DNA of 64,000 nucleotides, from contig NZ_AP025174.1 in assembly GCF_003402535.2 (NCBI RefSeq), positions 186,001 through 250,000 on the forward strand, read 5' to 3'. The translations under genes were made by a program, and so were the position numbers. The notes under the pieces were generated by a model. It was not told the DNA's origin, searched no databases, and saw only the letters and a program-made list of their open reading frames with translations. This DNA comes from Cupriavidus sp. P-10 (lineage in GTDB: Bacteria > Pseudomonadota > Gammaproteobacteria > Burkholderiales > Burkholderiaceae). Numbering within the stretch: the first letter of the stretch is position 1; each line of letters begins with the position of its first letter. Below, piece by piece: positions 3,279-20,117 of this stretch.

Positions 3279-4761
3279 CTCCCGTGAGCTGATCGTAGAT
3301 GTCGAGGCGGTGGGGTATCACCAGCTTGTCCTTGTGCCGGACGTGTTCAGGTAGATGGATACCCACGGGCGGCGGTGCCTGGCGCGCCTCGCGCCGGCGC
3401 TCCAGCGCCAGGCGCACCGGATTCTGGTGAGGCGCCGCATCGCTGGCGAGGATTTCCTCGATCGCCGCTTGCAATTCAGCGGCGCCATAGCGGTCGAGCA
3501 GCCGCAGCAGGTGGGTGGTGATGTTGCCCAGATTGCCGCCCCGTTCCGCTGCGCGCTGCAGCAGCGCCTGGCTGGCCGGCGCCGCCCGAGCCAGATGGTC
3601 AAGTCCGCGATGGTGGCGGGCTTCGCGTTTGCGTTCGACCAAGGCATTGATGTGCGCGGCAATCTCTATCTGCGCGCCGCGATCGTAACTGCGCTCATGA
3701 GTGGCGAGCAGTTCCGTGCCATCGAGGATGCGTACCTGCCGGGGACTGGCCCGCACCGTGAGCGTGCGTCGCACATGCGTATGCGGGATCGTGTAGTCAT
3801 TCAGATCGAAGCGCACATACGGTGTCTTGCCGACCTTGACAGCCAGTTGCAGTTCGCATGGATAGGGATTCTCCGGCAAGGCGAGCAGGCTGGGCTGCTC
3901 GCGGGAGAACGCCTCGCGTACGCTGATCGTCGGTTCTTCCCGGCAGGGACGATCGGCCGCAAGTCCCGCACACCAATGGGCGGCTTGGGCGTTGAGCTCA
4001 TCGAGGTCGGTCACGGTGCGTCCGGCGAAGAAGCTCTCGCGTACATAGCGGATGGCGCGCTCGACGCGCCCCTTCTCGTTGCCACGGGCGACGGCAACCG
4101 GCCGGGGCTCGTAGCGGTGATGCGCCGCGAACGCGAGCAGTGTCGGATGGAAACGGATCGCATCGCCCTGGCGTTCCAGCACGGCACTCTTCAGGTTGTC
4201 GTAGAGCAGGACCCTGGGAAGGCCGGACCAGGCTTCGAAGGCACCGGCATGGCCGGCCAGGAAGCTGTCCATGCGTGCATCAAGGTAGAAGCGCAGATAG
4301 ATCTGCCGCGACCATGACAGCACCATCACGAAGGCCATCAGCGGCCGGCGTGCGCGGCCGATCTGCAGATGGCCGAAGTGACCCCAATCGACTTGCCCTT
4401 GTTCGCCCGGCAAGGTACGCAGACGCAGATAGGCTTCCGGCTGTGGGCGCGGCCGGTGCAGCGCGATCATGTGCCGGAAGTGGTGCTGGCTCCCGCGGTA
4501 GCCGCGTTCGGTCACCATCGCATACAGGCGGCTGGCCGTGAGCGACGGGAACTTCTTCAACGTCTCATGGATGAATGGCAGGTAGGCGTCGATCTGCGAC
4601 GGCCGCTGCACGCTGCCAATCCTGGGCAGGCCGGCCTGCGCCAGCACACGCTGGACGGTGTCGCGGTGCACATGCAACTGGCGCGCGATGGTGCCGGCGC
4701 GCCATTTCTCGACGTGGTAGTAACGCAGGATCTGGGCTTCAAGTTCTACTCCAATGGTCAT
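3259..4761 (-). CDS. istA: IS21 transposase IstA
   Basis: A 500-aa transposase. Residues 1-50 form a helix-turn-helix ([41 protein letters not shown]). The integrase-type catalytic core starts near residue 120: [11 protein letters not shown] carries the first Asp, [10 protein letters not shown] the second Asp, and [19 protein letters not shown] the final Glu. A beta-barrel and basic C-terminal tail follow. The length is standard for IstA. Its ATG overlaps the stop of the upstream accessory gene (4758-4761). Confidence 0.95.
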
Positions 4762-5216
4762 GGGTCGTGTCCTGTGCGGTCAGTCGTACGAACATCACGG
4801 AAGACCCGACGACGCAGTGGTCCGAGGCGGACAAAGCCCGAATATGTGCAACGGCAGAAGTGGCAATGCTCAGGCACCGGTGTTGAGGCGCCAGCGGGCG
4901 CCGGTGCTCTGGCCGGCGTCGTCAAGGTCAGCGGCAGTAGAGCATCGGCGGCCTGCGCGGCGGAACCCTGATGCGTCACTTTCTTTTGGCGACAGCGGTA
5001 GCGGCGCATCCGCTCCGCGTGCGCCAAGCGGCCGCGGCGGCTGCGTTGATAGCGCTGAGCGGCCTCGCGCAGGCTGGCGCGACGCGCTGCTTGCGAGCAG
5101 CCGCCATTGCAGTAGATCTGACCGCGGTCGCAGCGGCGGCAAACAACGACCTGCGCCCGGCAATGGGCGCACACAAAGAGGCGGCCCGTGGCCGGCATCG
5201 GCGATCCCCCAGTCAT
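4758..5216 (-). CDS. IS21-associated zinc-ribbon-like protein
   Basis: An Arg-rich protein with paired CxxC motifs near its N-terminus ([14 protein letters not shown], then CNGGC), suggesting a zinc-binding module. A very basic helix follows ([20 protein letters not shown]). It overlaps istA by four bases and appears to be the first gene of the element. The frame is open further upstream to 5393, but that stretch runs through the likely terminal repeats, so I favour the ATG at 5216 ([12 protein letters not shown]) or the one at 5198. Function is unknown; nucleic-acid binding in support of transposition is plausible. Confidence 0.6.
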
Positions 5217-5409
5217 GCCGAAACGGCCTCGACGGGATGGACGAGCCGTGCCATACTGGCTCGGCACGCGCGCCCTTGGCACGAGTGGGGCACGACATCG
5301 GGATGAACTTGGCGGTTTGGACCGGTGTCGTGCCTGTTTCTTTTCGGCGGTAAAGCCAACCTTTTTACCGCATCCCCACTGCGACGTCACCACCTTGCGG
5401 AATGCCCAT

Positions 5410-5460
5410 CACCGGGCGCGTCTGCACTCGCCCTACGGGCTCGCTCCGACGCGCCCGGTG
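5410..5460. repeat. Perfect 13-bp inverted repeat with an inner stem
   Basis: The arms CACCGGGCGCGTC (5410-5422) and GACGCGCCCGGTG (5448-5460) are exact complements. The 25-base loop contains a further GCCC-TAC-GGGC stem. It lies between the IS21 right edge and the 3' end of the next minus-strand gene. No T run follows, so an intrinsic terminator is less likely than a structural or target site. Confidence 0.6.
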
Positions 5461-5526
5461 GCCACCTTCAATATCGAATCAGAAGACCTCGAGACAATCC
5501 TGCAATGCAGGAGTTGCTCCGCATCT

Positions 5527-6528
5527 TTAAGCCGCGCCGCCGTTTAGTGCCGGTTTTAGACAGCCATTCACAGGGGTGGCCATGGGGCTTCCAAATCCCA
5601 ATCTCGCGAACCCCAAACGTTGATGATCCAGATGGAAGGCGATGTGGGCATTGCGTGCTTCGCTGGGATGGGCGAATGGCAGATACTGATATGCGTGGCC
5701 ACCGGATTGAAATTCCAGGATTCCGCCAGCTAACTGCTCGGTGATGGCCATGATTCCCCCCGGCCGGTGGACCCGCGTGCGTTGTCTCAACAGTCGCCAG
5801 GGCGAGTCTCCCCAGGACATGATCGTTACGTCGTCAGGGTGGTAATGCGGGCGCGTACCGGCCAGTAACGCCTCGAAGCCGTTCAGACAGCCAGCGTAGC
5901 CCGCTTTCACAGGGCCAGTGACGCGTTCATCGGGCGCGCGGTAGTCCGGGTAGATGTTGACGAACAGGAGCGTGCCCAGTTTCCCGGACAATAGGGGCTC
6001 GGTCACGGCGGCGAAATAGCGCCTTGCGACGGACTCGTCGTTGTCTGGCAAGAGATGCAGGCCATCCTGCCGCATGGGCCAGTTCAGCCTGTGTGGCTTA
6101 CCCTCACGCTTGGGCACGATCGGATACCAGTCGTGGCCCACGATGATCACCAGGCGGCGCACCGGGGCTTTGCCGTAAGTGCGATGCAGAGCGTGGTCCG
6201 TCCAGGGACTGATGCCGAAGCTAAAGCCAAGGTCGTGCTGCCTGCAGAGCGCTACCATGCGGGCGGCCAGCGCCGGCGCCGATATGGCGCGGCCGTTCTG
6301 CACCTCGGTATCGAGTTTCTCCACGGTTGTACTGAAGGACTCGTACTTTTCGAGCGTTGCCCGATGGAAATCCGACGTTAGGTATGACCATGGACGCGTC
6401 CGCGCGGTATCCCAGTAGCTCGCTAACTCCGGGGTAATGCGAGGAAAGATCTCACGGTAAGCCTCGATGATTCGCTGCGCACCTGTACGGTCGTAATGCA
6501 TCGCTCTCGAAGAAGTATCGACTGGCAT
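5527..6528 (-). CDS. Uracil-DNA-glycosylase-like fold protein, function unknown
   Basis: A 333-aa soluble protein. Its ordered motifs resemble the uracil-DNA glycosylase superfamily: VIIVGHDWYP (about residue 127; compare GQDPYH of family 1), LLFVNIYPDYR (about 190; compare LLN-LT), TIMSWGDSPW (about 237; compare the strand ending WG) and YLPFAHPSEARN (about 285; compare the HPSP loop). The first ~110 residues are extra and helical. The catalytic Asp region reads GHDWYP, so the Asp is kept but the next residue differs. It may be a divergent glycosylase or a homologue used on modified or phage DNA. The family assignment rests on motif order only. An alternative start is MHYDRTG nine residues in. 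Confidence 0.55.
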   Translation of the reverse strand: MPVDTSSRAMHYDRTGAQRIIEAYREIFPRITPELASYWDTARTRPWSYLTSDFHRATLEKYESFSTTVEKLDTEVQNGRAISAPALAARMVALCRQHDLGFSFGISPWTDHALHRTYGKAPVRRLVIIVGHDWYPIVPKREGKPHRLNWPMRQDGLHLLPDNDESVARRYFAAVTEPLLSGKLGTLLFVNIYPDYRAPDERVTGPVKAGYAGCLNGFEALLAGTRPHYHPDDVTIMSWGDSPWRLLRQRTRVHRPGGIMAITEQLAGGILEFQSGGHAYQYLPFAHPSEARNAHIAFHLDHQRLGFARLGFGSPMATPVNGCLKPALNGGAA

Positions 6529-6628
6529 GGAGTTCTGGGAACTGTTCTTGGCTTTCTATGCAAGGTGAAGCAAGCGGTGCGCTGGTCCGCAAAGTCATGC
6601 CGACAATCACAGCCGCGATAAGCGCATC

Positions 6629-6916
6629 CTATGGCTTTACACGAAAATGCTCGATCGACTGGCCAGCGTTCACGGCGCGCTGCAGCCAGTCCGGCAGATC
6701 GCCGTGACCATCCCACGCGTGGCCATAAGCGTCTCGGAAGCAAATCGGACGGGCGGAGGCATTGGCGAGCGACGCTCCTTCAGAAAAGCAGCCTGCGTTC
6801 TGCAGGTCGGCCAGATGCAGGCCATATCTGGCCATTTGCGTCTTGATCCATAGGATCGTCTCGGCGCGCTCGCGCAACAGTTGGGTGTCGGAATCCTGGA
6901 GAAGGGCAGGAGGCAT
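6629..6916 (-). CDS. H-NS-like short protein (copy 1, intact)
   Basis: A 95-aa protein. An N-terminal helix (AETILWIKTQMARYGLHLAD, then LQNAGCF) is followed by a linker and an H-NS-type DNA-binding motif (CFRDAYGHAWDGHGDLPDWL). The motif aligns with the 'Y-R-D-x-G-x-x-W-x-G-x-G-x-x-P-x-W-L' signature of H-NS C-termini. It ends NAGQSIEHFRV. It would bind AT-rich minor groove and silence genes. Three related copies, two of them broken, occur elsewhere in the window. It lies about 100 bp upstream of the glycosylase-like gene on the same strand. Confidence 0.8.
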   Translation of the reverse strand: MPPALLQDSDTQLLRERAETILWIKTQMARYGLHLADLQNAGCFSEGASLANASARPICFRDAYGHAWDGHGDLPDWLQRAVNAGQSIEHFRVKP

Positions 6917-7333
6917 GCTGGCGAAAGAGCTAGGGTCGAAGCATCAGGAAAGAAAGGACGTTCGGAAGGCACCCGCCGGACAGGGCAGGGCATCGGGGCC
7001 AGACGCAAGAGTATTCTAACTGGTGCGCCACGCCCCAGGTCTACGCCTGACCTCGCCCGCAGCTAATGCCTGCGAAGCGACTGCCTAACGCATTCCCGCA
7101 TTAGCGGCAATCAATCCGATAGAGACGGGTCAACCCACTTTTGTCGGAAATCACTGCCACATATCATGAATTGATAGTCCGTCCGCGCGAAAGATGGCGT
7201 GCGCGGCCCAAGCGAGGAGGTAGGCCATTGGACGGGAATTGAGGATGAGCAACGGCGTCAGACTACCGCCGTCCAGAGGGCCCAGACGTACGTGGGGGTT
7301 GGGTTGCCGGGGCGCGGCGGTAAAACCAAGCCC
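6917..7333. other. Intergenic, nothing recognised
   Basis: About 417 bases with no convincing gene. Short frames exist on both strands but lack start signals and family motifs. Confidence 0.5.
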
Positions 7334-7534
7334 TTATCGAATGCTGCGGACGGCTTCGAGCATCGAGTGTCCTTGGCTGGTCAGGCGAGGATAAGCACTG
7401 CCACTATCATGCCCGTGTTCCATCGTGACCAGCTTGTGGGCTAGCAAGCCGTCCAATTGATCAGGTTCGAGATCATCGATATCGTGCGCATCGCCAAGCA
7501 AGAGTAGCGCAGCGATTTCGTGCGAACTTAGCAT
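7334..7534 (-). CDS. Small conserved-type hypothetical, possible winged-helix
   Basis: A 66-aa protein beginning MLSSHEIAALLLLGDA. Its layout (helix, LDGLLAHKLVTMEHG, then YPRLTSQGHSMLEAVRSI) resembles the tail of a winged helix, where 'L(I/V)xL..G.a.l' follows the recognition wing. The start is fixed by a near-perfect Shine-Dalgarno sequence (AAAGGAGG, six bases before the ATG). It has no partner gene. It is probably a small regulator or DNA-binding protein, but the function is not established. Confidence 0.7.
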   Translation of the reverse strand: MLSSHEIAALLLLGDAHDIDDLEPDQLDGLLAHKLVTMEHGHDSGSAYPRLTSQGHSMLEAVRSIR

Positions 7535-8274
7535 GGTGGCCTCCTTTGCCGGGGTCGGAAAATGGAACCTACGATAGCTGGTCCGTGGATCGAACTCCAC
7601 GAAGGATGAGGGGAATGGAAATGGACTCGCCGGTGTCAGGGACACGCAGGACGCGCACACCGAGGGGCCACCTTAAACTGATTTTTTGCCGGAAGCAAGT
7701 TAAGACTGTGCTGCATCGCAGCGCGGCTTTCGCACCAGTGGTCGCCAGCCTGCCGAGCGATTCCGCTCGAAGCTATGGCCACGCCGCGGCTGTGAGGGAC
7801 TTTTCGCAAACTTGATGGAAGAGCTGATGCTGTCCTGCACACAGACCTCACCGTCCAAGATGCCTCCCGAGGGTAGGGCAAATCCGAGAGTGGACTTCGT
7901 TCGACAATGTGGCTCGCACGACATCAAAGGATAGTCAGCGGCAGCCAGCTTTGACGGGCCCGCCAGCGAGCCAGCCAAGGGATGCCTCCGGCTTCCACCA
8001 TAGTGGATCCTAATGACCCGAAAAAGTCAGCGCAGCATCTTCTCTCACTTATTATCGGTCATTGCTTCACGTTGATCCTCCTGGCCCAATTTTCCTTGAA
8101 TTCAAGTGGCATTACATTGAGGCTTTCCTATTGGATTGAGCGCCCCTGATGATCGTGTCAAAAGAAAAGACTTGGTCCGGCCGTGGTCGCCAACCGGCAT
8201 GGCTTGGCAAGAACCCCAAAAGGTTCCTGATCGCAGAAGAAGCCTAGGTAAGAACGGTATTCATCTCGGCCACT
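7535..8274. other. Intergenic, about 740 bases, no intact gene
   Basis: A minus-strand frame near 7700-7978 contains the string GGILDGEVCVQDS, reminiscent of ATP-dependent DNA ligase, but nothing else around it supports that. The rest shows no gene. It is probably decayed sequence. Confidence 0.4.
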
Positions 8275-9333
8275 TCAGTGCGAATGTCTGTGATGAATAT
8301 CCGGATAGTGAGGATGCTTGTGAACTATCGGGGCATGCCTGTGGGCATGCGTGTGCGGCTCCAACCCGTCCCACGGAAAATCATGCTCATGCTGGTGATG
8401 TTCGTCGTGGCGGTGGGCATGGGTGTGTTCCATCGCCTCGTGGATATGCTCATGCTCGTGCCGTTCCCGCAGATGCAGCCACACGCCTAACGCCATCAGC
8501 GCTGCAGCAAGCCAAAACAGGACACTGGGTATCTCCGGCCATAACGCGAAAGAGATCGCCACGCCAAACAGTGGTGCCACCGAGAAGTAAGCCCCCGTCC
8601 TGGCGGTACCAAGGTGGCGAAGCGCGATCACAAACAGCGCCAAGCTCACACCATAGCCAACGAATCCGATCAGCAGCGCCGATGCCAGCGGTAGTCCGGC
8701 CGACAGCTTGGCGCCGGCTGCCAGTGCGAATCCGGTATTGCATGCACCTGCCACCAAGCCCTTCAGGCACGCGATCAGGACGGCGTCATTCGATGACACC
8801 TTGCGGGTAAGGTTGTTGTCGATTGCCCAGCATCCGCAGGCTGCGACGATAAGCAGCGCACCCGGGGACAAGGCGGCGGCCTCTGGTTGCCAGGACAGCA
8901 GGACGCCTCCGGCAACGATGGCGATCATGCCGAGCACGATTTGCCGGTCGGCATTCTCTTTGAACACAATCCAGGCGATAAGCGCGGTGAAGACGCCTTC
9001 GACGTTCAACAGGAGCGAGGCAGAGGCGGCGTTCGTGACGACAAGGCCGGTCATCAGAAGCGCCGGACCAGCAACGCCGCCAGCCAGGATCGCTCCCAAC
9101 AGCCATGGAATCTCGTGACGTGGGATTGGCGGTTGCGATGGCGGCTGGTTAGCAGGCTTCCGAGCAAGCCGTCTTAGAAGCAGGTATCCACCTAGACCCA
9201 AACCGCTCCCCAGATACAACAGGCCCGCTAGCAACAGTGGCGAGACAGAACCCGTCAGGGTTTTGGCCAGCGGCGTACTTGCTCCGAACAGTAGTGCAGC
9301 AGCGAGCGCGGGGGCGGCAGAACGAATGGACAT
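8275..9333 (-). CDS. EamA/DMT-family exporter with His-rich C-terminal tail
   Basis: A 352-aa inner-membrane protein with about ten hydrophobic segments in two EamA repeats (repeat 1 from residue 1, LLFGASTPLAKTL; repeat 2 from about 160). This is the drug/metabolite transporter fold. The last ~65 residues after the final helix are exceptionally rich in histidine (over 20 His, for example HEHEHIHEAMEHTHAHRHDE), a probable metal-binding cytoplasmic tail. Such tails suggest export or sensing of a divalent metal or metal complex, although most EamA proteins carry amino acids or metabolites. It is transcribed alone. A distinctive upstream sequence at 9419-9455 may control it. Confidence 0.88.
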   Translation of the reverse strand: MSIRSAAPALAAALLFGASTPLAKTLTGSVSPLLLAGLLYLGSGLGLGGYLLLRRLARKPANQPPSQPPIPRHEIPWLLGAILAGGVAGPALLMTGLVVTNAASASLLLNVEGVFTALIAWIVFKENADRQIVLGMIAIVAGGVLLSWQPEAAALSPGALLIVAACGCWAIDNNLTRKVSSNDAVLIACLKGLVAGACNTGFALAAGAKLSAGLPLASALLIGFVGYGVSLALFVIALRHLGTARTGAYFSVAPLFGVAISFALWPEIPSVLFWLAAALMALGVWLHLRERHEHEHIHEAMEHTHAHRHDEHHQHEHDFPWDGLEPHTHAHRHAPIVHKHPHYPDIHHRHSH

Positions 9334-10551: not shown

Positions 10552-10641
10552 GCGACGTAAAGCCGTACGGAAAAGATAAAAAGTGCCTCATAGATCAATG
10601 CATGACACTTTTACGTCGAGTTACCGGACAACTTTACGTTA
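10552..10641. repeat. Three copies of a CTTTACGTCG-like motif
   Basis: The motif occurs inverted at 10552-10562 (GCGACGTAAAG) and direct at 10603-10618 (TGACACTTTTACGTCG) and 10626-10641 (GGACAACTTTACGTTA). The two direct copies share GACA-ACTTTACGT. Clustered sites of this kind are found at ends of some transposons and in complex operators. They lie about 300 bases beyond the 3' end of the kinase/helicase operon. Confidence 0.4.
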
Positions 10642-10688
10642 GAGGATTCTATTTGGCTCAAGTACGACATTACTATTTGGGCCTAACA

Positions 10689-10721
10689 TATGCAATGCGC
10701 ATAACAACCGTTATGTTCAAT
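10689..10721 (+). promoter_or_regulatory. Second copy of the EamA upstream motif
   Basis: TATGCAATGC (10689-10698) and CAACCGTTATGTTCAAT (10705-10721) repeat the blocks upstream of the EamA exporter in opposite orientation. No gene with a clear start follows on the plus strand, so this copy may be a relic of a duplicated promoter or a second binding site. Confidence 0.4.
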
Positions 10722-10920
10722 CCTGGCTGCCAGCTAACGGCCGACGATCTGACCGTCGCACAGCAAGATGACAGTGGTCGTTGTACCCGGGTATCCAGAC
10801 GCAAACGCGTCCCCTGCCGTGAATCCCATGCGTCCAGGGCAGCGCTGTCGCGCGTCAGGCGAAAGCCAGGCGGCAATTTGACGGTTGCAGTCACTTCTCC
10901 GAAGGGATTCCCGGACGAAG

Positions 10921-12309
10921 CTATTCCTCGACTTCCCCATCACGAGGCTTGTTTTCCCGCTCCCGTCCCCAATGGATACCTGGCGGGGGTTTCGAAATGT
11001 AGTAGCCGCGGCCCAGACTTGCTGGTAGCCGCATGTGATGCTTCACAGTCTGATCGATTTTCTCCCCAGCTAGTTCAATGCCGTGCGCCTCCGCTTGCAT
11101 CCGCACATAGCCCCTTAACATCTTTTCACGATACGTATAAAGCCCTTGATTACCAGAGGCCGTAACTAGGATTGATCCATAGTTTTTCTCTTTGAGCTTC
11201 CTAATCCGCGCAGCGAACTTCTCATAGGGCAGCGCGGCGCTATCGCGCCGCTGACGCATAATGTATTCGTAGGAGGAGAACATCTGCTTAGTAAAGCGTT
11301 CCAAATATTCAGAGTCTGCGGTTGCCCAAAGTACCTCCTCATAGTCACTGGTTCGTTTGTTGACTGCCTCTTGGTATGGCCTCTTGAGTTCGGCACTTAT
11401 GCTGTCGATTGCAACACGCAGGCCTTGATGGTAATGGGACCACTTGATTTCCGTTACAGGAAAAGGATCGTCAAACGCGCACCAAAGTATCTTCTCAGTG
11501 ATAAAATGTGCGTAGTACGGATAACCGTCGCACACCGCCGCTATGCGGATGTAGATTTCCTTATCGACGCTTAGACCGAATGCTTCGGCCGCATTTAGCA
11601 CTATTCCCCATCGTGCATCCCAACTGAGCTTGGGAAGATTGATTGTCTCCAATTGACGAATCGCTGATTGATGGGCTCCTAGCAATTCGTCGAGAGAACT
11701 AGCGACCCCGGTAAAAATCAGCTTCATCGGCACTTTCTTGTCGCCCATTTGCTTCAATAGATCAGCAAATGCAGTTCGCTCTGAGGCATCGGATATCCGG
11801 TCAAACTCATCCAGTACTGCGATAGGTTTTTCGGAGTGTAGAAGAGCCGCCTCGCGGAGAACTTCTATTGCATCGGCTAGGCTGATGATCTCCTTGTGCA
11901 AGTCAACGGGCAAGGTTTCACTTGTCACCGCGGCTTTCAAGAAACGAAGGTCGGCAGTATAGGTAGATGATTTCTTATTGCGACTGAGGCGACTAGCATC
12001 CAATGCTTGGTAGGCGATGTTGGCGACAATACTTTTGAGCGTGGCATCCGGGCTACAGCCGATATCTACATGAGCCGCATCTGCGCTCTGGTATTGATTT
12101 GCGGCAGTTGCTGCAAGTGACGACTTCCCTACGCCGCGATCCCCATAAATGAAGATATTTCGGCCCGCCGCAAAGAGAGCCTTCTCTATCTGGTCAAGCT
12201 CGTCCCTTCTGCCAAATAGGTGCTCGACCGACTGTATCGGCTGTGACGCAAACAGAACATCATTAAGCTTTTCTCCAAAGCTATGTTTATCAAATCCACC
12301 AATAGTCAT
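10921..12309 (-). CDS. AAA/STAND-like ATPase, last gene of kinase-helicase operon
   Basis: A 462-aa protein. An ORC/STAND-type opening (HLFGRRDELDQIEKALF, about residues 30-46) leads into Walker A (YGDRGVGKSS, about 54-63), Walker B (IAVLDEFDRIS, about 163-173) and a sensor strand (MKLIFTGVASS, about 197). The remaining ~200 residues are helical with a basic, Trp/Gly-containing tail and no recognisable effector domain. This is the ATPase type common in defence and signalling proteins. It follows the third gene after 83 bases, so it may be co-transcribed or have its own ribosome site. The biochemical role (NTP-driven switch or DNA loader) is inferred. Confidence 0.8.
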   Translation of the reverse strand: MTIGGFDKHSFGEKLNDVLFASQPIQSVEHLFGRRDELDQIEKALFAAGRNIFIYGDRGVGKSSLAATAANQYQSADAAHVDIGCSPDATLKSIVANIAYQALDASRLSRNKKSSTYTADLRFLKAAVTSETLPVDLHKEIISLADAIEVLREAALLHSEKPIAVLDEFDRISDASERTAFADLLKQMGDKKVPMKLIFTGVASSLDELLGAHQSAIRQLETINLPKLSWDARWGIVLNAAEAFGLSVDKEIYIRIAAVCDGYPYYAHFITEKILWCAFDDPFPVTEIKWSHYHQGLRVAIDSISAELKRPYQEAVNKRTSDYEEVLWATADSEYLERFTKQMFSSYEYIMRQRRDSAALPYEKFAARIRKLKEKNYGSILVTASGNQGLYTYREKMLRGYVRMQAEAHGIELAGEKIDQTVKHHMRLPASLGRGYYISKPPPGIHWGRERENKPRDGEVEE

Positions 12310-12392
12310 TCTTAGTGTTCGAGTGTTGGCAATTGATCCACAAACATGGCGGCCCTACATTGAGGCCGGCGAAACTTCTATTGACTAGGAGT

Positions 12393-13760
12393 TCACTGTT
12401 GTCTCCTACGTCCCCGACGTAGTGTGCTCGGTTCAGAGTTGGGGTCAGGCAGCTCTTGCACAAGGGCGGACAGGTTGGACAGCAGCTGTGAGATGCGCGC
12501 TTTTGTGGATATTTCAGCGGCAGCGGGCAGCGTGGGTTGATCGGCTTCAAAGGAAAGCTGATGCTGTTCGACGCGCGGCCGGCCCGCCTTTGCCTGATAT
12601 GTGAAGCTCGAAGTAACAAAGGGGAGCAATTCCACCTCAATTTCGCCGACGTGTCCGAGTCGGCGCGACACTGCATCTATTCCAATCCGCTCCAATGCCT
12701 TAAGCTCTCTATACGCCAAATCCGCGGATGGCCGGTCAATATGACCTTCTGCTCGTGCCATGTCTCTCAAAAGACGTACGCCGAAGCCACCCTGGCCGGA
12801 CAGTATTTCCTTTGGAGACTGCAAGGCAGCATACAGCGAGTACCAAGCGGATACTGATGGATCAGCAGCGTTTCTGAGTAATTCAAGGTGTTCGAGCGAC
12901 CCAGGAGCGACCTGCGTCGCAATGAACGCACATGCGGCGGCTCTGCTTTCGTCGACCAGCAAAGTGGATTTGCGAAGGGCGTGCTGCAACAGGCTTGCGC
13001 GCTCCTCGCGGTTTGCTGCGCGGATTGCCTTGAGGGTCACTGGCGTTTCGATGAATGCAGCAAGTTGTCCCCACGCATTCTCTTGAGAAACTTCGTCGTC
13101 AGATAGCAAAGTAGCGGCCATTTTGCTCGCCGGTCCCTCTGGCGGCCTGCCAAGCGCGATCTGCGTGATTGCATTTAGCGGGGCCATTGAGGCCCCAATG
13201 GTTAGGTGAGCGGTGCTCAACGGAGTGTGCGAGCTAATGAGGCCGTATGCCTCCGTCCATCTGTCGGGCAGTATGTCAAATGACCTTGCCGGCGTCCTGG
13301 CGGCAAGTGCACGTCCCCATGCGAAGGAAAGTGTTCGCTTGCAGAGCGCTGGAGTCAATTGGCGAAGTCCGACACGACCTTCCGTGTGCAAGACGGCCTC
13401 AGTCATCGCAAGTGCGACAAGGACTGGCAGAATCCCGTCATCCAATCCATATGGGTCCGTACCGAAGTGACCCCTTGCTTCTTCAGTCGTCAGGATGCGA
13501 ACGACTGATGATAGGGGGCTTGGGGCCTGAGGGCTGGCTAAGATAGCCCTCAGAAGCTCGCCAACCTCTTTCGTCGGAATGACCACGAGATTCGGCGGCA
13601 GGTACCGGGTCTCTGACTCACGCTCCCAATATGCATGGAGTACCAAAGCGTCCTCATCACAATAGACGCCCGAAGCGCGTTGCAATTTGCCTTCCAGCGA
13701 ATCGAATGTGCCTAGGCACAGCTCAATAAATTGTCGTCTTGAAAGTTGTGCGTGCCACAT
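12393..13760 (-). CDS. 455-aa protein of unknown family in defence-like operon
   Basis: I recognise no domain. The protein begins MWHAQLSRRQFIELCLGTF and is largely alpha-helical (long Ala/Leu-rich stretches, e.g. EERASLLQHALRKSTLLVDE). It has no signal peptide, membrane helix, Walker motif or obvious nuclease or protease signature. It ends in a short Arg-rich tail (TLRRGRRRQQ). Translation probably starts at the ATG at 13760, two bases after the helicase stop; an in-frame TTG at 13766 would overlap that stop. Its place between helicase and ATPase suggests a structural or recognition subunit, by inference only. Confidence 0.75.
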   Translation of the reverse strand: MWHAQLSRRQFIELCLGTFDSLEGKLQRASGVYCDEDALVLHAYWERESETRYLPPNLVVIPTKEVGELLRAILASPQAPSPLSSVVRILTTEEARGHFGTDPYGLDDGILPVLVALAMTEAVLHTEGRVGLRQLTPALCKRTLSFAWGRALAARTPARSFDILPDRWTEAYGLISSHTPLSTAHLTIGASMAPLNAITQIALGRPPEGPASKMAATLLSDDEVSQENAWGQLAAFIETPVTLKAIRAANREERASLLQHALRKSTLLVDESRAAACAFIATQVAPGSLEHLELLRNAADPSVSAWYSLYAALQSPKEILSGQGGFGVRLLRDMARAEGHIDRPSADLAYRELKALERIGIDAVSRRLGHVGEIEVELLPFVTSSFTYQAKAGRPRVEQHQLSFEADQPTLPAAAEISTKARISQLLSNLSALVQELPDPNSEPSTLRRGRRRQQ

Positions 13761-13762
13761 AG

Positions 13763-14914
13763 TCAAAATTTGCCGAAAATGTTTTGCTTGGTGACAGGTT
13801 TCTTCGCGGGGGCTACAGCAAGCAAAGCAGCCTCTAAGTAGCCAGGGATCGACTGCTCCCAGTAAAGCGTCAGAGCCGTCTTCGCCCGAGTGATTCCAGT
13901 GTAAATCAAGCGTTTCTGAACTCCACCCATCCGGTATAAAAAGTCGAGGCCGGCGATATGGGCCGCTCTAAATTCCAAGCCTTTTGCCGCCGTAAGAGTC
14001 GACAGCCAAATCGGGCGACTTGGCTCGAATGCATCGGAGTTCGCCCGAGTGATGAAGTCGCTCAACCCCGCAGCTTGCAAGCCTTCCGCGATCGCATCCA
14101 ACTCTTCGTTTCGCGGGCATAGTACGCCGATCAGGTCTTCCGGATAAGCGAAACGCTGGTCATTGATCTGCGCCGCAATGGCCGCTGTTTGAGCTTCAAT
14201 GCCGAGCCCCGACTTGGTTGAGACCTTTGACGGATAGTCTTGCTCTTGATAGTTCGAGTGCTGCTGGAGCGGTATGTATCCCGGTGTCCCTTTCACTATG
14301 CCATCCGCGAGCCTACATATCTCAAGCCCGTTTCGAAAGTGAAATTTCAGCGGATAGACGGTTCCGATGCACTTCTCCAGTGTCGGGACGCAGTCGTCCA
14401 CATTGTAGATGCGCTGCCGCGAGTCTGCCGTAGCTATCAAGACTTCTGTGAGCCTGTGCAGAAGCTCAACCTCTAAAGGCGTATAGTCTTGAGCTTCGTC
14501 CAATAAGAGCGCATCAAATTGCACTCCAATTTTTTTCGACTTGACAAGCTCCTGTATGCGGCTGGCTCGCTCTGCGCGCGCGTCCTCCAGTTTCATACCC
14601 GAGTCATTAAAATCCGCATTCTCGGAACGGAGGATGTTCTTGAACAGGGCTGTGTGAGTGACGATCTTGTCAGGCGGAAATTTGTACTGCGAGCCACCAA
14701 TTTGAATAAACTGCTTTAGCAGGGAGCCGAATACGACAACGTGCAAGTTAGGGCGGTCGCCTAAGTAGAGCTGATTTGCACGCAGAAGAAGTAGGTTGGT
14801 CTTTCCGCTGCCAGGAGGTCCCTTAACGAGCAGGTTTTCGTCAGTAGGAATGTCCAGCAGGTCTGCCTGTTCCTTTACCAGGTCATCTACGTCCCGCCAC
14901 CAAGTGCTGCTCAT
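13763..14914 (-). CDS. Short UvrD/Rep-like SF1 helicase or ATPase
   Basis: A 383-aa SF1 protein. Walker A is VKGPPGSGKTNLLLLRANQL (about residues 29-48) and motif II is LLLDEAQD (about 135). A motif-IV-like YPLKFHFRNG lies near 190, motif V is TLTAAKGLEFRAAHIAGLD (about 307) and motif VI is YTGITRAKTALTLYW (about 340). It is about half the size of UvrD, so the large 1B/2B insertions are missing or minimal. It ends with a basic tail (KKPVTKQNIFGKF). The start lies three bases after the kinase stop, so the two are tightly coupled. Helicase activity is probable from motifs; the substrate is unknown. Confidence 0.85.
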   Translation of the reverse strand: MSSTWWRDVDDLVKEQADLLDIPTDENLLVKGPPGSGKTNLLLLRANQLYLGDRPNLHVVVFGSLLKQFIQIGGSQYKFPPDKIVTHTALFKNILRSENADFNDSGMKLEDARAERASRIQELVKSKKIGVQFDALLLDEAQDYTPLEVELLHRLTEVLIATADSRQRIYNVDDCVPTLEKCIGTVYPLKFHFRNGLEICRLADGIVKGTPGYIPLQQHSNYQEQDYPSKVSTKSGLGIEAQTAAIAAQINDQRFAYPEDLIGVLCPRNEELDAIAEGLQAAGLSDFITRANSDAFEPSRPIWLSTLTAAKGLEFRAAHIAGLDFLYRMGGVQKRLIYTGITRAKTALTLYWEQSIPGYLEAALLAVAPAKKPVTKQNIFGKF

Positions 14915-14917
14915 TCT

Positions 14918-16327
14918 TTATTCCTTGGTCAATCGGAGTACGTCACCAGAGGGCGGTGCGTCTCCCTGTTCATAGGTTTGGTATGCGCCTTCCAATGCTT
15001 CGAGAAATTGCTGTTCTAGTTCGGGTCCATCCAGCAATTGTTGGATCTCACCGACAAAAAATTGCTTAGCGGGCTGCAGCTGGTCAGCTCCCACCTCCTC
15101 TTCCGACAGCGTCGCAGAGGTCGCAGCCTTATATATCGGAGTCCCGTTATTGAAATCGATAAGACAGATGTCAAACATCACCGTTAGGCGATGCTTCAGC
15201 CCCATTTCGTCGTCTGGCTCGAAGTGTACACAGATCGTGGATCTCCTGTTATTCACATCTTTGTTCGACTTTGTTGCTCGAAGCGGGAAGCACTGAAGAT
15301 AATTCATTAGTGCAGCTATGCGTGATTCCAGTCGATTGCAAAGATCGTCGAGGGCCAGTCTGGTCAATCGCCGTTGATCAGCGGGCTGCACCACAGTCTC
15401 TGTTGCTGCAGCGTGGAAATATTTCTGGCGTTGCCTTATTCGATCGCGAGCCGCCGAAACTTGAGTGCTGCTCTGAAAAGGGGTATCGGAGAAATCAGCC
15501 CATTTTACGAGCTCAAGGCGTGTCACCGGACTCTTTACCAAGCAGTGATTTGCCAGCGTGACACATCGTACGTCTGCCGAATGAATATTCGGAACAACTG
15601 TCCTAACGGCGTCGACTAGGCGCGAAAATGGCTCAGAGTACTCCTCGAAAACCGGTCGCCTCATGAGCATGTCATGGAGGACGGCGCCGAGCTGATAAAA
15701 AGTCAACGCCCGCCAGCCATCCAATGTGTCGGCCTCTTGGCGAAGTAAGAACTCGGGAGAGCTGTAGCGCAATGTGCCGATAAAGGATCGCTGGTCAACG
15801 TCGGTCAGATTGGATAGCCCAATCGGCCGCAGCACTCCCAAATCTAGAAGGATTGCCTTTGAGAAATCGGGGGTTATTGCGATGTTCTCTGGCTTTATGT
15901 CCCGGTGAGCCATTCCGCGGTCCTCCAAGAATCGCGCTGCGGAAGCTACTTGGGAAATCAGCTTGGGTATCGCCTCTTGCGGCAGGGCTGTAATAACTTG
16001 GTGCAGGTTTGGATAGGGCAGTCGCTCCATTGCGACGAACAAGTGCCCAGTGTCCGAGCACTCGCCGCCGTCAAGGATGCGTACTAAATTCGGATGCTCT
16101 GCATTGATGAGGCTTTTTTCGCGGAGGATGCGCTCAAGCTGAGTTGCCTTTCCGTATCGCTCAACGAGTTCAGGATGAAATATCTTAACAGCGGCTTTAC
16201 AGCTATCTCTTGTCGCTGGAAGCACCACGGCTGACTTGCCGTTGCCGAAGCAGCCATCAATGTTCCAGCCACCGACTGCTCGCCCTTGTAGGCTGTCTGT
16301 CAATTGTTTGGCTTGTGTCGAGTCCAC
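14918..16327 (-). CDS. Hanks-type serine/threonine protein kinase
   Basis: A 469-aa cytoplasmic kinase and first gene of the operon. The Gly-rich loop is GCFGNGKSAVV (about residues 25-35) and the ATP-binding Lys is in AAVKIFHPE (about 47). The catalytic loop is AHRDIKPENI (about 140) and the metal-binding motif is LLDLGV, a DLG variant of DFG (about 157). An APE-like SSPEFLL and a full C-lobe follow. Residues ~290-469 form a separate C-terminal region of unknown type. There is no transmembrane or PASTA segment, unlike PknB. The start is a GTG at 16327 with a weak ribosome site; the next gene begins three bases after its stop. Lower GC than flanking genes, by eye, suggests transfer. Confidence 0.88.
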   Translation of the reverse strand: MDSTQAKQLTDSLQGRAVGGWNIDGCFGNGKSAVVLPATRDSCKAAVKIFHPELVERYGKATQLERILREKSLINAEHPNLVRILDGGECSDTGHLFVAMERLPYPNLHQVITALPQEAIPKLISQVASAARFLEDRGMAHRDIKPENIAITPDFSKAILLDLGVLRPIGLSNLTDVDQRSFIGTLRYSSPEFLLRQEADTLDGWRALTFYQLGAVLHDMLMRRPVFEEYSEPFSRLVDAVRTVVPNIHSADVRCVTLANHCLVKSPVTRLELVKWADFSDTPFQSSTQVSAARDRIRQRQKYFHAAATETVVQPADQRRLTRLALDDLCNRLESRIAALMNYLQCFPLRATKSNKDVNNRRSTICVHFEPDDEMGLKHRLTVMFDICLIDFNNGTPIYKAATSATLSEEEVGADQLQPAKQFFVGEIQQLLDGPELEQQFLEALEGAYQTYEQGDAPPSGDVLRLTKE

Positions 16328-16604
16328 GAATATCTCTAGGGTTCGTTATGTTCGGCTAGGGGTAGCGCGTTGCTCGAGGCCGTGATCCTAGCTCATTGAT
16401 CGTTCCTGTAAGAGAGTGTAACAGTCGATCACGGCGGCTACACGCTTCAGAGCCACGCGCAATGCGACTAAACTTGTCGACAGTACGGCGAAACAGAGTA
16501 GCTTCACCCGTGCGATCGCGCCTCGGGCAACGTTCAGCGTCAGACAGGAGGCCCCAACGAGCCCACATGCATTGAGAAAAACTCTGCATGGCTCCACGCC
16601 TGAC

Positions 16605-16863
16605 CCGAGTCAGTGCATTGAGCCCGGAAAAACTTCATACCCTGTCCCGCATTGAACGCCGGCCGCAGCCAGGCGGGCATCTCCCCCTGCCCGTCCCAGC
16701 TCATCCCCTCGGCGTTGCCGGTAGCAAACCGGGAGGCGGATGGCGGGGGGGCGGCGAATCGAAGCCCCGCTGCCTCCAGATCCTCCATCGTCAGGCCGTA
16801 GTCGGTCCATCTGGGGCTAGATCCAGCGGATCGCGTCCGCCCGCTCATTTTTAGTTGCCATCG
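16605..16863 (-). pseudogene. H-NS-like short protein (copy 2, broken)
   Basis: The copy starts MATKNERADAIRWI and hits a TAG. The rest then continues in another frame as DYGLTMEDLEAAGL, followed by a degenerate DNA-binding motif (NAEGMSWDGQGEMPAWL) and NAGQGMKFFRA. Comparison with the intact copy at 47720-47989 shows a stop plus a frameshift near 16817-16822. Confidence 0.8.
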
Positions 16864-18390: not shown

Positions 18391-19503
18391 TCAAGCATGT
18401 TGCATTAGGCCGATCGGCACTACGTTCTCAGGCCTTGTTGCGAACGCCCCTTGATCAAAACGCGCCGCAAGAAGCTGATCAAGAAGCGATGTTCGGACCC
18501 TCATCTCCCGGGCCAAATCTCCACGTGAAATCCCAAACGCTTCTCGCAATACTTGCATGCTGTCGGCGATCAAATCGGGGATCTCAAGCTGTATCTGAGA
18601 GTCTTCCACTTCAGCTCGAGCCTCGCCTCGACGAGTCAAACCAATGACGCCGCTGCGATATTGCTCTTCGGAGAAAATGCCGAGCTGTCGTCCTCTGTAT
18701 AGGATCGCAGCCTTTGAAACCCCCCAGCGAAACTTGATGTCCGAGAGCGCCGACCAGTTGAGTCTTGATCCCCGCTGCGCCGCTCCGCACTCCGCTGCAA
18801 AGTACCGGCGAGGCATAAGGAATGCACTGGCGAACCGATTCGCTTGGGACTCAGTAAGCCGGTCACCGGTTTGCACTCCAATGTGCAGACATAGATGACC
18901 GATTTCGTGAGCGACGCCAAAGCGGGATCGGCATGCAGAACGGCTCTCCGCATTCATTGCGATCACTGGACGGCGCGTGGCAAACGATATGGCATCAATC
19001 TCCGGCGCAAGGTCGGTGATTGGCATCACCACGGCGCCAGCGTTCTCGGCAACGCGAGTCATATTCTGGATGGGACCCAGACCTAAACCCCAATGCTCAC
19101 GGGCCCTTTCTGCTGCTAGCTCAATCAGCTCAGCGCTGCTCGAATCGCTTTCCTCAAAGTCATACCGGGGAAGGTCAAGGTGACTGTCCATGACGTTCAC
19201 CATGCGCTTCAAAAACTCGCCACGGGCACGCGCCACTTGACGAAGCGCAACTTTCGTTGTCAGTTGCTTCCGGAAATGGCACTGCTCGTCAGCGATCGGC
19301 ATCGGGTCAGGTTCCGAAAAAAATTCGGGCATGACAGCCAGCGCTTCGCAGAACTTTGTGACGAGGCTGAGTGACGGTAGGTCAACGCCCGACTCTAGAC
19401 GGCTCAAAAACTGCTTTGAACAGCCGATGTTATCGCCCAGCTCCTGTTGGGATAGCCCATGGAAGAGCCGGGCGTTACGCAGATTCGAACCAATAAAAGT
19501 CAT
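18391..19503 (-). CDS. XRE regulator fused to ImmA/IrrE-type metallopeptidase
   Basis: A 370-aa protein. Residues 5-60 form an XRE helix-turn-helix (NLRNARLFHGLSQQELGDNI; CSKQFLSRLESG). The middle and C-terminal region is an ImmA/IrrE-type Zn-peptidase domain, with the metal motif VAHEIGHLCLHIG (about residues 196-208) and a third ligand in TESQANRFASAFLMP (about 217). A ~100-residue helical C-terminal part follows. Such proteins cleave or inactivate repressors after a trigger, or act in toxin-antitoxin-like defence pairs such as RosmerTA. Its ATG overlaps the stop of the upstream partner by four bases, so the two are co-translated. Confidence 0.88.
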   Translation of the reverse strand: MTFIGSNLRNARLFHGLSQQELGDNIGCSKQFLSRLESGVDLPSLSLVTKFCEALAVMPEFFSEPDPMPIADEQCHFRKQLTTKVALRQVARARGEFLKRMVNVMDSHLDLPRYDFEESDSSSAELIELAAERAREHWGLGLGPIQNMTRVAENAGAVVMPITDLAPEIDAISFATRRPVIAMNAESRSACRSRFGVAHEIGHLCLHIGVQTGDRLTESQANRFASAFLMPRRYFAAECGAAQRGSRLNWSALSDIKFRWGVSKAAILYRGRQLGIFSEEQYRSGVIGLTRRGEARAEVEDSQIQLEIPDLIADSMQVLREAFGISRGDLAREMRVRTSLLDQLLAARFDQGAFATRPENVVPIGLMQHA

Positions 19504-20117
19504 TCTTCACTATTTGCTGCAGTGTCCGAGTCTGAGTCAGCCCGCTTGGGGCCGACGGGCGCACGTCCAACATCCTTAGCGGGTGGCGTGTTCGCGGCAA
19601 CAATGTGAAGCGCCTTGGTGGCATTCGAGATCCACTGGCAGCGAACCTGACCCCGGATATCCTCGCCCAGGAAAACTACGCGGGGATCTTCAGCTTCCTC
19701 GTATCCACCATCCAAGATAAAGCAAAACTTGCACGGTTCGTCGTCGCCATCCACAGCATCGAAAAAGGACTGCTGCACCGGAGTGACCGAAAGTACCGCC
19801 GGCTTCGTCGGATTTGAAGGGTCATCCGTCGTGAATCGGCAAGGAATACCCCCAATGCTAAAGACAAGGTCGTTGCCGGCGTGAAGCAGTTGGAGCCAAT
19901 CGTACTCACCCGACAGCGCTACAGAGCGCAACCGGTTCTTTTGCCGTGCGAACCTTGTGCACCCCCGCGAATATCCGTCGTCGAACTCGCTCTGAAGATC
20001 AGTCGCAGTCGAAAAGTGTTCGGCGATCAGCATGTCCCCGATGATGCTGAGGCGATCGGCTGCCAGAGCGGCGTGAAAATGGTCAGGAAGCGGTAGGTTC
20101 ATTGACGAAATATCCAA
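19500..20117 (-). CDS. Hypothetical partner of the XRE-IrrE protein
   Basis: A 205-aa acidic soluble protein (begins MDISSMNLPLPDHFHAALAA). Features include GCTRFARQKNRLR and a likely beta-rich core (YDWLQLLHAGNDLVFSIGGI, PCKFCFILDGGYEEAEDPRV). It ends in a disordered tail. No known domain was recognised. Overlap with the next gene (19500-19503) indicates an obligate pair. In such pairs one protein is usually the target or inhibitor of the peptidase. It could be toxin, antitoxin or substrate; the sequence does not decide. Confidence 0.7.
   Translation of the reverse strand: MDISSMNLPLPDHFHAALAADRLSIIGDMLIAEHFSTATDLQSEFDDGYSRGCTRFARQKNRLRSVALSGEYDWLQLLHAGNDLVFSIGGIPCRFTTDDPSNPTKPAVLSVTPVQQSFFDAVDGDDEPCKFCFILDGGYEEAEDPRVVFLGEDIRGQVRCQWISNATKALHIVAANTPPAKDVGRAPVGPKRADSDSDTAANSEE

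Follow-up and report, generated by a model that had tools for sequence, protein, structure and literature searches.

PD-T4-6 is a single-gene system, and kinases of its type work alone against phage; UvrD and FBH1, both superfamily 1 (SF1) helicases, function in repair. Mokosh, in the part of PMC10952713 that deals with it, has NERD and PLD-like domains. Section 3.8 of PMC9503650 predicts host conflict systems centred on an ADP-ribosylglycohydrolase (ARG) domain, which evolve fast and have variable partners, and the portions of that paper considered here name helicases, vWA proteins, Nudix or WYL regulators, phosphatases and chaperones as possible partners. Here we analysed a stretch of 64,000 nucleotides from Cupriavidus sp. 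P-10 (contig NZ_AP025174.1, positions 186,001 to 250,000), called the window below, in which the genes of a protein kinase (KIN), an SF1 helicase (HEL) and a protein of unfamiliar type (UNK) stand in a row, followed by the gene of an AAA-ATPase. Our results support KIN, HEL and UNK as one conserved mobile unit.

Conservation of the KIN-HEL-UNK unit

A preliminary description of the locus, made from the sequence alone, had read it as an operon of four minus-strand genes. The four open reading frames (ORFs) are all on the minus strand, and the spacings computed from their coordinates are 3, 2 and 83 bases, just as it had stated. The module itself consists of the following parts (positions in the window):

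14918..16327, minus strand: KIN, Hanks-type Ser/Thr kinase, 469 aa, GTG start, first gene of the module (Pfam Pkinase)
13763..14914, minus strand: HEL, minimal SF1 (UvrD/HelD/FBH1-like) helicase, 383 aa, second gene of the module (Pfam UvrD_C_2, UvrD-helicase)
12393..13760, minus strand: UNK, 455 aa from ATG, with a predicted ADP-ribosylglycohydrolase-like (ARH/DraG-like) core, third gene of the module
12750..13445, minus strand: predicted ARH/DraG-like core of UNK, residues 106-337 (range from the model; conservation in 64 sequences)

For UNK, a TTG two codons upstream of the ATG is a possible alternative start. A promoter scan of 10600-16700 returned no sigma-70-like sites. A terminator-like hairpin (12368-12350) lies in the gap between UNK and the ATPase gene, such sites being fewer here than in shuffled sequence.

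KIN belongs to the Hanks-type Ser/Thr kinases, with the HRD loop, a DFG-type motif and the glycine loop in place. Its residues 26-272 match Pfam Pkinase (E 2.1e-23), which leaves about 195 C-terminal residues uncovered. The HRDIKPEN loop is intact and DLG replaces DFG; the catalytic motifs, with DLG for DFG, were found in all nine KINs examined. The highest Kyte-Doolittle mean over 19 residues is 1.13, too low anywhere to suggest that KIN is anchored in a membrane. HEL matches both of its Pfam families above their cut-offs and has intact motifs (GPPGSGKT, DEAQD, AAKGLEFR and TRAKT), and motifs I, II, V and VI are present in 9 of 9 HELs examined, which places them among the SF1 UvrD-like helicases. 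The nearest solved structures in a profile search were HelD, PcrA, FBH1 and UvrD, with GajB lower down. The earlier reading of these two genes, a Hanks kinase without membrane anchor (HRDIKPEN, DLG) and a half-size UvrD-like protein in which motifs I, II, V and VI are complete, agrees with the Pfam matches and motif scans of both and with the hydropathy of KIN.

It turned out that 10 of the 11 loci that are readable at all three positions keep the order KIN-HEL-UNK, and a KIN orthologue immediately precedes HEL in 11 of the 12 loci where that position can be read. The loci fall into two branches. For branch A, to which the window belongs, a scan of the genome contigs with the single UNK sequence was empty; a profile alignment of UNK then gave six genome loci, two from metagenome-assembled genomes, and tblastn with UNK gave two Rhizobium leguminosarum plasmids, one of which was read (L008). 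Of the seven loci so obtained and read, six (L002-L006 and L008) have the three genes in the same order and orientation. In the remaining one, L007, HEL and a diverged UNK are preceded by another protein, which resembles the candidate PDC-S32; only some 1.3 kb of contig is left ahead of HEL, and KIN could sit farther out. A VWA-TIR fusion protein (4538-6757, minus strand) adjoins the diverged HEL-UNK of this locus. At L004 (7437-8826), the KIN match is split across frames and the Walker A of HEL is preceded by W for G (WPPGSGKT), so that copy may be decaying.

Branch B shares about 30% identity with branch A in KIN and HEL and 18% in UNK, with the order kept. Its members are written KIN', HEL' and UNK'. 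A HEL scan of viral contigs gave seven loci, of which L010, L011 and L012 were strong: L010 and L012 carry all three genes in the same order, and L011 ends past HEL'. L048 and L049 are repeats of L010 and L012, and L013-L016, fragments of helicase similarity only, were dropped. Besides, a branch-B trio (L051) occurs in the genome G177, which belongs to the same order as the window; the diverged HEL of G177 presumably falls below the cut-off of E <= 1e-40, at which HEL was found, among 399 genomes, in the window's genome only.

The three genes have diverged in parallel. Their identity matrices correlate with r 0.97-0.985 over nine loci, and with r 0.87-0.96 in branch A alone (six loci; values this high came up in 1 to 5 of 720 permutations); matrices and motif checks leave aside L004 (KIN frame broken) and L007, L011 and L050 (one gene missing). 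UNK diverges fastest: between the window and L002 the identity is 60% for KIN, 70% for HEL and 47% for UNK. The distribution is sparse in the genome searches, which scored the best few candidates per genome. Branch-A UNK was found in 0 of 398 and 0 of 368 genomes besides the window's own, and KIN at E <= 1e-40 in 2 of 300, the same two that carry UNK. There was no match with branch-A UNK or KIN in the viral contigs, none with branch-A UNK or HEL in the phage collection, and none with branch-B UNK in the plasmid and phage collections. Of 83 UNK matches, the window's own included, 33 pair indirectly with genomes among the 120 listed of 938 HEL matches, and 87 of these 120 have no such UNK pairing. 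Since UNK has 83 listed homologues, the window's own included, with 37 invariant columns in 26 of them aligned, and the first three genes stand in the same order at other loci, their grouping exceeds chance. Conserved synteny, suggested earlier as a check on all four genes, holds for KIN, HEL and UNK, which co-occur in 10 of 11 loci, and fails for the ATPase, which had no match in the ten UNK-bearing loci tested.

The UNK family and its predicted fold

UNK had been described as a 455-aa protein without recognisable domain, and indeed the window UNK has no Pfam, PADLOC or NCBIfam match at E <= 1 and no PHROG match at E <= 0.001. For branch-B UNK no PADLOC or PHROG match was found, and its Pfam matches are all far below cut-off. 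The family is covered by none of the model sets searched (Pfam, NCBIfam, PADLOC, PHROG; defence models to 2023). We listed 203 members over both branches: 83 in branch A, the window's own included, with the 37 invariant columns counted across 26 aligned sequences, and 120 of 125 in branch B, which come from Burkholderia, Paraburkholderia, Cupriavidus gilardii, Pseudomonas, Salmonella, Providencia and others. Profile comparison shows the two branches to be homologous (E 2.7e-26 over 433 columns), and they have 19 conserved columns in common. Eleven positions are identical in 64 of 64 aligned UNKs (P82, E121, R167, E252, R254, H291, W306, D347, E352, E377 and P380 in window numbering).

The part of the earlier label that may give way concerns the structure. 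We compared one AlphaFold model per branch with known folds, and in both the ADP-ribosylglycohydrolases (ARH/DraG) ranked above all others, filling the top 22 rows for the window UNK and the top 27 for branch B over the same region; after these rows the score falls from 6.1 to 4.2 and from 5.1 to 4.6, respectively. The two models weakly suggest an ARH-like fold for the UNK core.

An ARG domain requires a binuclear metal site as well as a conserved TH motif, according to section 3.4.2 of PMC9503650. None of the 83 UNKs of branch A and 2 of the 120 of branch B have both TDD and DxDT, against 29 of 30 comparison ARHs picked regardless of motif, and lone TDD or DxDT motifs in UNKs stand at scattered positions. 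UNK has no Pfam match to the ADP-ribosylglycohydrolases (PF03747) at E <= 1, and when the UNK alignment was compared with solved structures, no match was better than E 0.4. Because the ARH metal motifs are missing, we rejected UNK as a genuine ADP-ribosylhydrolase. Within the predicted ARH-like core both branches keep E121, R167, E252, R254, H291 and W306. Kept at about 18% identity, the invariant polar set points to a putative binding or active site of UNK's own.

Genomic setting

Defence genes lie near the module in the window and in L003, L008 and L010, a raw tally of four loci that has no control rate and excludes the neighbours of L004, L011, L012 and L050. About 2 kb upstream of KIN, the window contains what had been noticed before as an XRE-IrrE pair in a defence setting, and PADLOC identifies this pair as RmrA/RmrT:

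18391..19503, minus strand: RmrA (XRE-IrrE type), neighbouring defence gene (PADLOC, E 3.6e-124)
19500..20117, minus strand: RmrT, partner of RmrA (PADLOC, E 3e-39)

In L008, on a conjugative plasmid, the defence neighbour is Hachiman, with HamA 424 bases from KIN on the opposite strand and HamB and a DarT match beyond; at 6-13 kb from UNK this plasmid also has SOS-type genes (DinB, ImuA, error-prone polymerase). In L010 (4821-7854), a UG17 reverse transcriptase (E 4e-134) and its SLATT_5 partner stand upstream of KIN', and a further gene there has the sequence appearance of a membrane-bound product. A type I restriction enzyme is encoded in L003, about 7 kb away from UNK.

Other neighbours are of various kinds. 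L050 carries HEL'-UNK' (1-2539 and 4126-8855) on a 10-kb contig with a Zot and a replication-protein match, so filamentous prophages may carry the module. In L006 a gene with a sub-cut-off integrase match (E 8.8e-6) lies about 0.5 kb past UNK, and a DUF4427 protein (5112-6359; E 1e-19) is encoded upstream of KIN. Two small genes follow UNK' in L051 (5506-6998), by eye HEPN-like and trypsin-like, with no Pfam or PADLOC match. We claim no link of the trypsin-like gene to the pairs of PMC12799240, which use MBL-type nucleases in the part of that paper considered.

Proposed function and described systems

Because of the rarity of the module, its mobility and its defence neighbours, immunity is our best guess. 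The module probably serves defence of some kind, and we consider it reasonably likely that KIN-HEL-UNK is a mobile three-gene immune module against phages or plasmids, with HEL-UNK sensing and KIN giving the output. We placed sensing in HEL-UNK and output in the kinase because HEL-UNK is kept where the preceding gene differs (L007); this exact split of roles is tentative. The mechanism that we infer, from defence itself to the part played by each protein, the ligand and the targets of the kinase, would run as follows. HEL would engage foreign or replicating DNA; UNK, with its ARH-like fold lacking catalytic metal motifs, might bind HEL or a nucleotide-like ligand and gate the response; KIN, once released, would phosphorylate host targets and halt growth, as in abortive infection. 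A more specific proposal is a new class of immunity in which a helicase, in complex with a repurposed ADP-ribosylglycohydrolase fold, controls a kinase, and where UNK reads an ADP-ribose/NAD-type infection signal or has new chemistry at the invariant Glu/Arg/His. Such a class is conceivable though rather unlikely, and if it exists, nucleotide signalling and protein phosphorylation would be joined in one defence pathway.

Several results weigh against an immune module built on an ARH-like UNK. The ARH-fold scores of both UNK models are middling, and hhalign of UNK against 26 ARH sequences, chosen via DxDT (4 of 30 loci dropped), gave a probability of 0.03% for either branch. Besides, the genes tested in L002, L005, L006 and L051 had no PADLOC match. 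The resemblance to ARH might be a helical coincidence, UNK having some other fold, which we regard as rather unlikely: the branches are only about 18% identical, yet one family tops both model rankings over the same region. Slightly less probable still is a module for DNA repair, recombination or element upkeep, whose kinase tunes the helicase under DNA damage. UvrD and FBH1 among the profile relatives of HEL, carriers from plasmid and viral collections, and the SOS-type genes of L008 would suit such a role, whereas the absence of branch-A UNK from all but the window's own genome in the two genome sets, the defence genes close to four loci and the faster divergence of UNK than of KIN and HEL argue against it.

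The fourth gene was also weighed as a working part, an effector or regulator in this copy:

10921..12309, minus strand: AAA_16 (STAND/ORC-like) ATPase, 462 aa, adjoining the module and apparently outside it (Pfam AAA_16, phrog_6841)

Its Pfam match (AAA_16, E 2.9e-14) bears out the STAND/ORC-like ATPase of the preliminary description, and it belongs to phrog_6841 (E 7.3e-79), a gene family of plasmids and phages that merits separate study. It lies on the same strand as UNK and 83 bases downstream, and an accessory slot is conceivable, as the genes downstream vary (an FRG-domain fragment in L008, the two small genes in L051). Against this, tblastn with the ATPase found no match in the ten UNK-bearing loci tested (L002-L008, L049, L050 and L051). 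None of the 16 plasmid-collection records with ATPase relatives is among the three with a HEL match, and beside three of these relatives (49, 47 and 37% identity) no kinase, helicase or UNK is annotated. As the ATPase is not conserved with the other three, we rejected the four-gene unit, and with it the four-part composition proposed at first; a four-gene system is improbable, and the ATPase is apparently an unrelated neighbour, a bystander to the module. Least probable, with hardly any chance in our view, is a split or reduced version of some named system that has a kinase, for example Mokosh or MADS. The kinase part of KIN does match MkoA (E 1.7e-11; positions 61-221 of a model of 1112) and mad6 (E 1.1e-21), but the matches are limited to kinase stretches, and neither UNK branch has a PADLOC match.

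Comparison with named systems, suggested at the outset as a check, gave only partial, single-domain PADLOC matches, so we rejected membership in Gabija, Mokosh, BREX and MADS. The NERD and PLD-like domains described for Mokosh in that part of PMC10952713 are not among the Pfam matches of the trio, with none at E <= 1 in KIN, HEL or UNK. For MADS, the likeness of mad6 is confined to a single domain, and mad8 gives weak matches for HEL (4.3e-5) and the AAA-ATPase (8.9e-4). BREX type 2 PglW reaches 27.8 bits against a cut-off of 990. Among helicases, the PADLOC family C3a187 (NERD and UvrD) matches HEL with its helicase part (E 6.4e-20), as does GajB of Gabija (E 1.8e-13); the PADLOC names C3a187 and C3a189 could not be tied to any named system. 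Unlike these, HEL has 383 aa, no NERD match, and KIN and UNK at its sides, and no OLD/TOPRIM or GajA match was found in KIN or UNK with Pfam and PADLOC (for KIN, the best 25 of 35 PADLOC families).

For UNK, the likeness to ARH1, ARH3 and DraG is a predicted one of fold, over residues 106-337 and the branch-B counterpart, unlike them in the missing TDD and DxDT pair and in sequence similarity. The ARG-centred systems have genuine ARG domains in the portions of PMC9503650 considered, and section 3.8 names no protein kinase among their partners, whereas UNK is without ARG metal motifs or family match; no Nudix, WYL, phosphatase or ARG Pfam match was found in KIN, HEL, UNK or the ATPase. Because that paper predicts ARG-centred conflict systems in the sections considered, we no longer claim novelty in defence for the ARH fold. 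Should the module prove immune, it would show a metal-less ARH-like fold at work in defence, where ARG domains have so far been predicted enzymes in those sections. It would also add a kinase-driven system whose sensing part is testable by a few point mutants, and the choice of laboratory models is broadened by branch B, with its relatives in Pseudomonas, Burkholderia, Salmonella and Providencia.

In conclusion, the idea of an undescribed kinase and SF1 helicase candidate defence operon near a defence pair stands for the first three genes: RmrA/RmrT adjoins, and we found no description of the KIN-HEL-UNK composition in the literature searched, though large recent screens may contain it. The closest kinases to KIN in PADLOC are the models of PD-T4-6, its top matches (best E 1.3e-30). 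Unlike that single gene, KIN has a C-terminal part of its own, and in 10 of 11 loci HEL and UNK accompany it. What is new here is probably a defence candidate that combines kinase and helicase with a third part of unfamiliar type.

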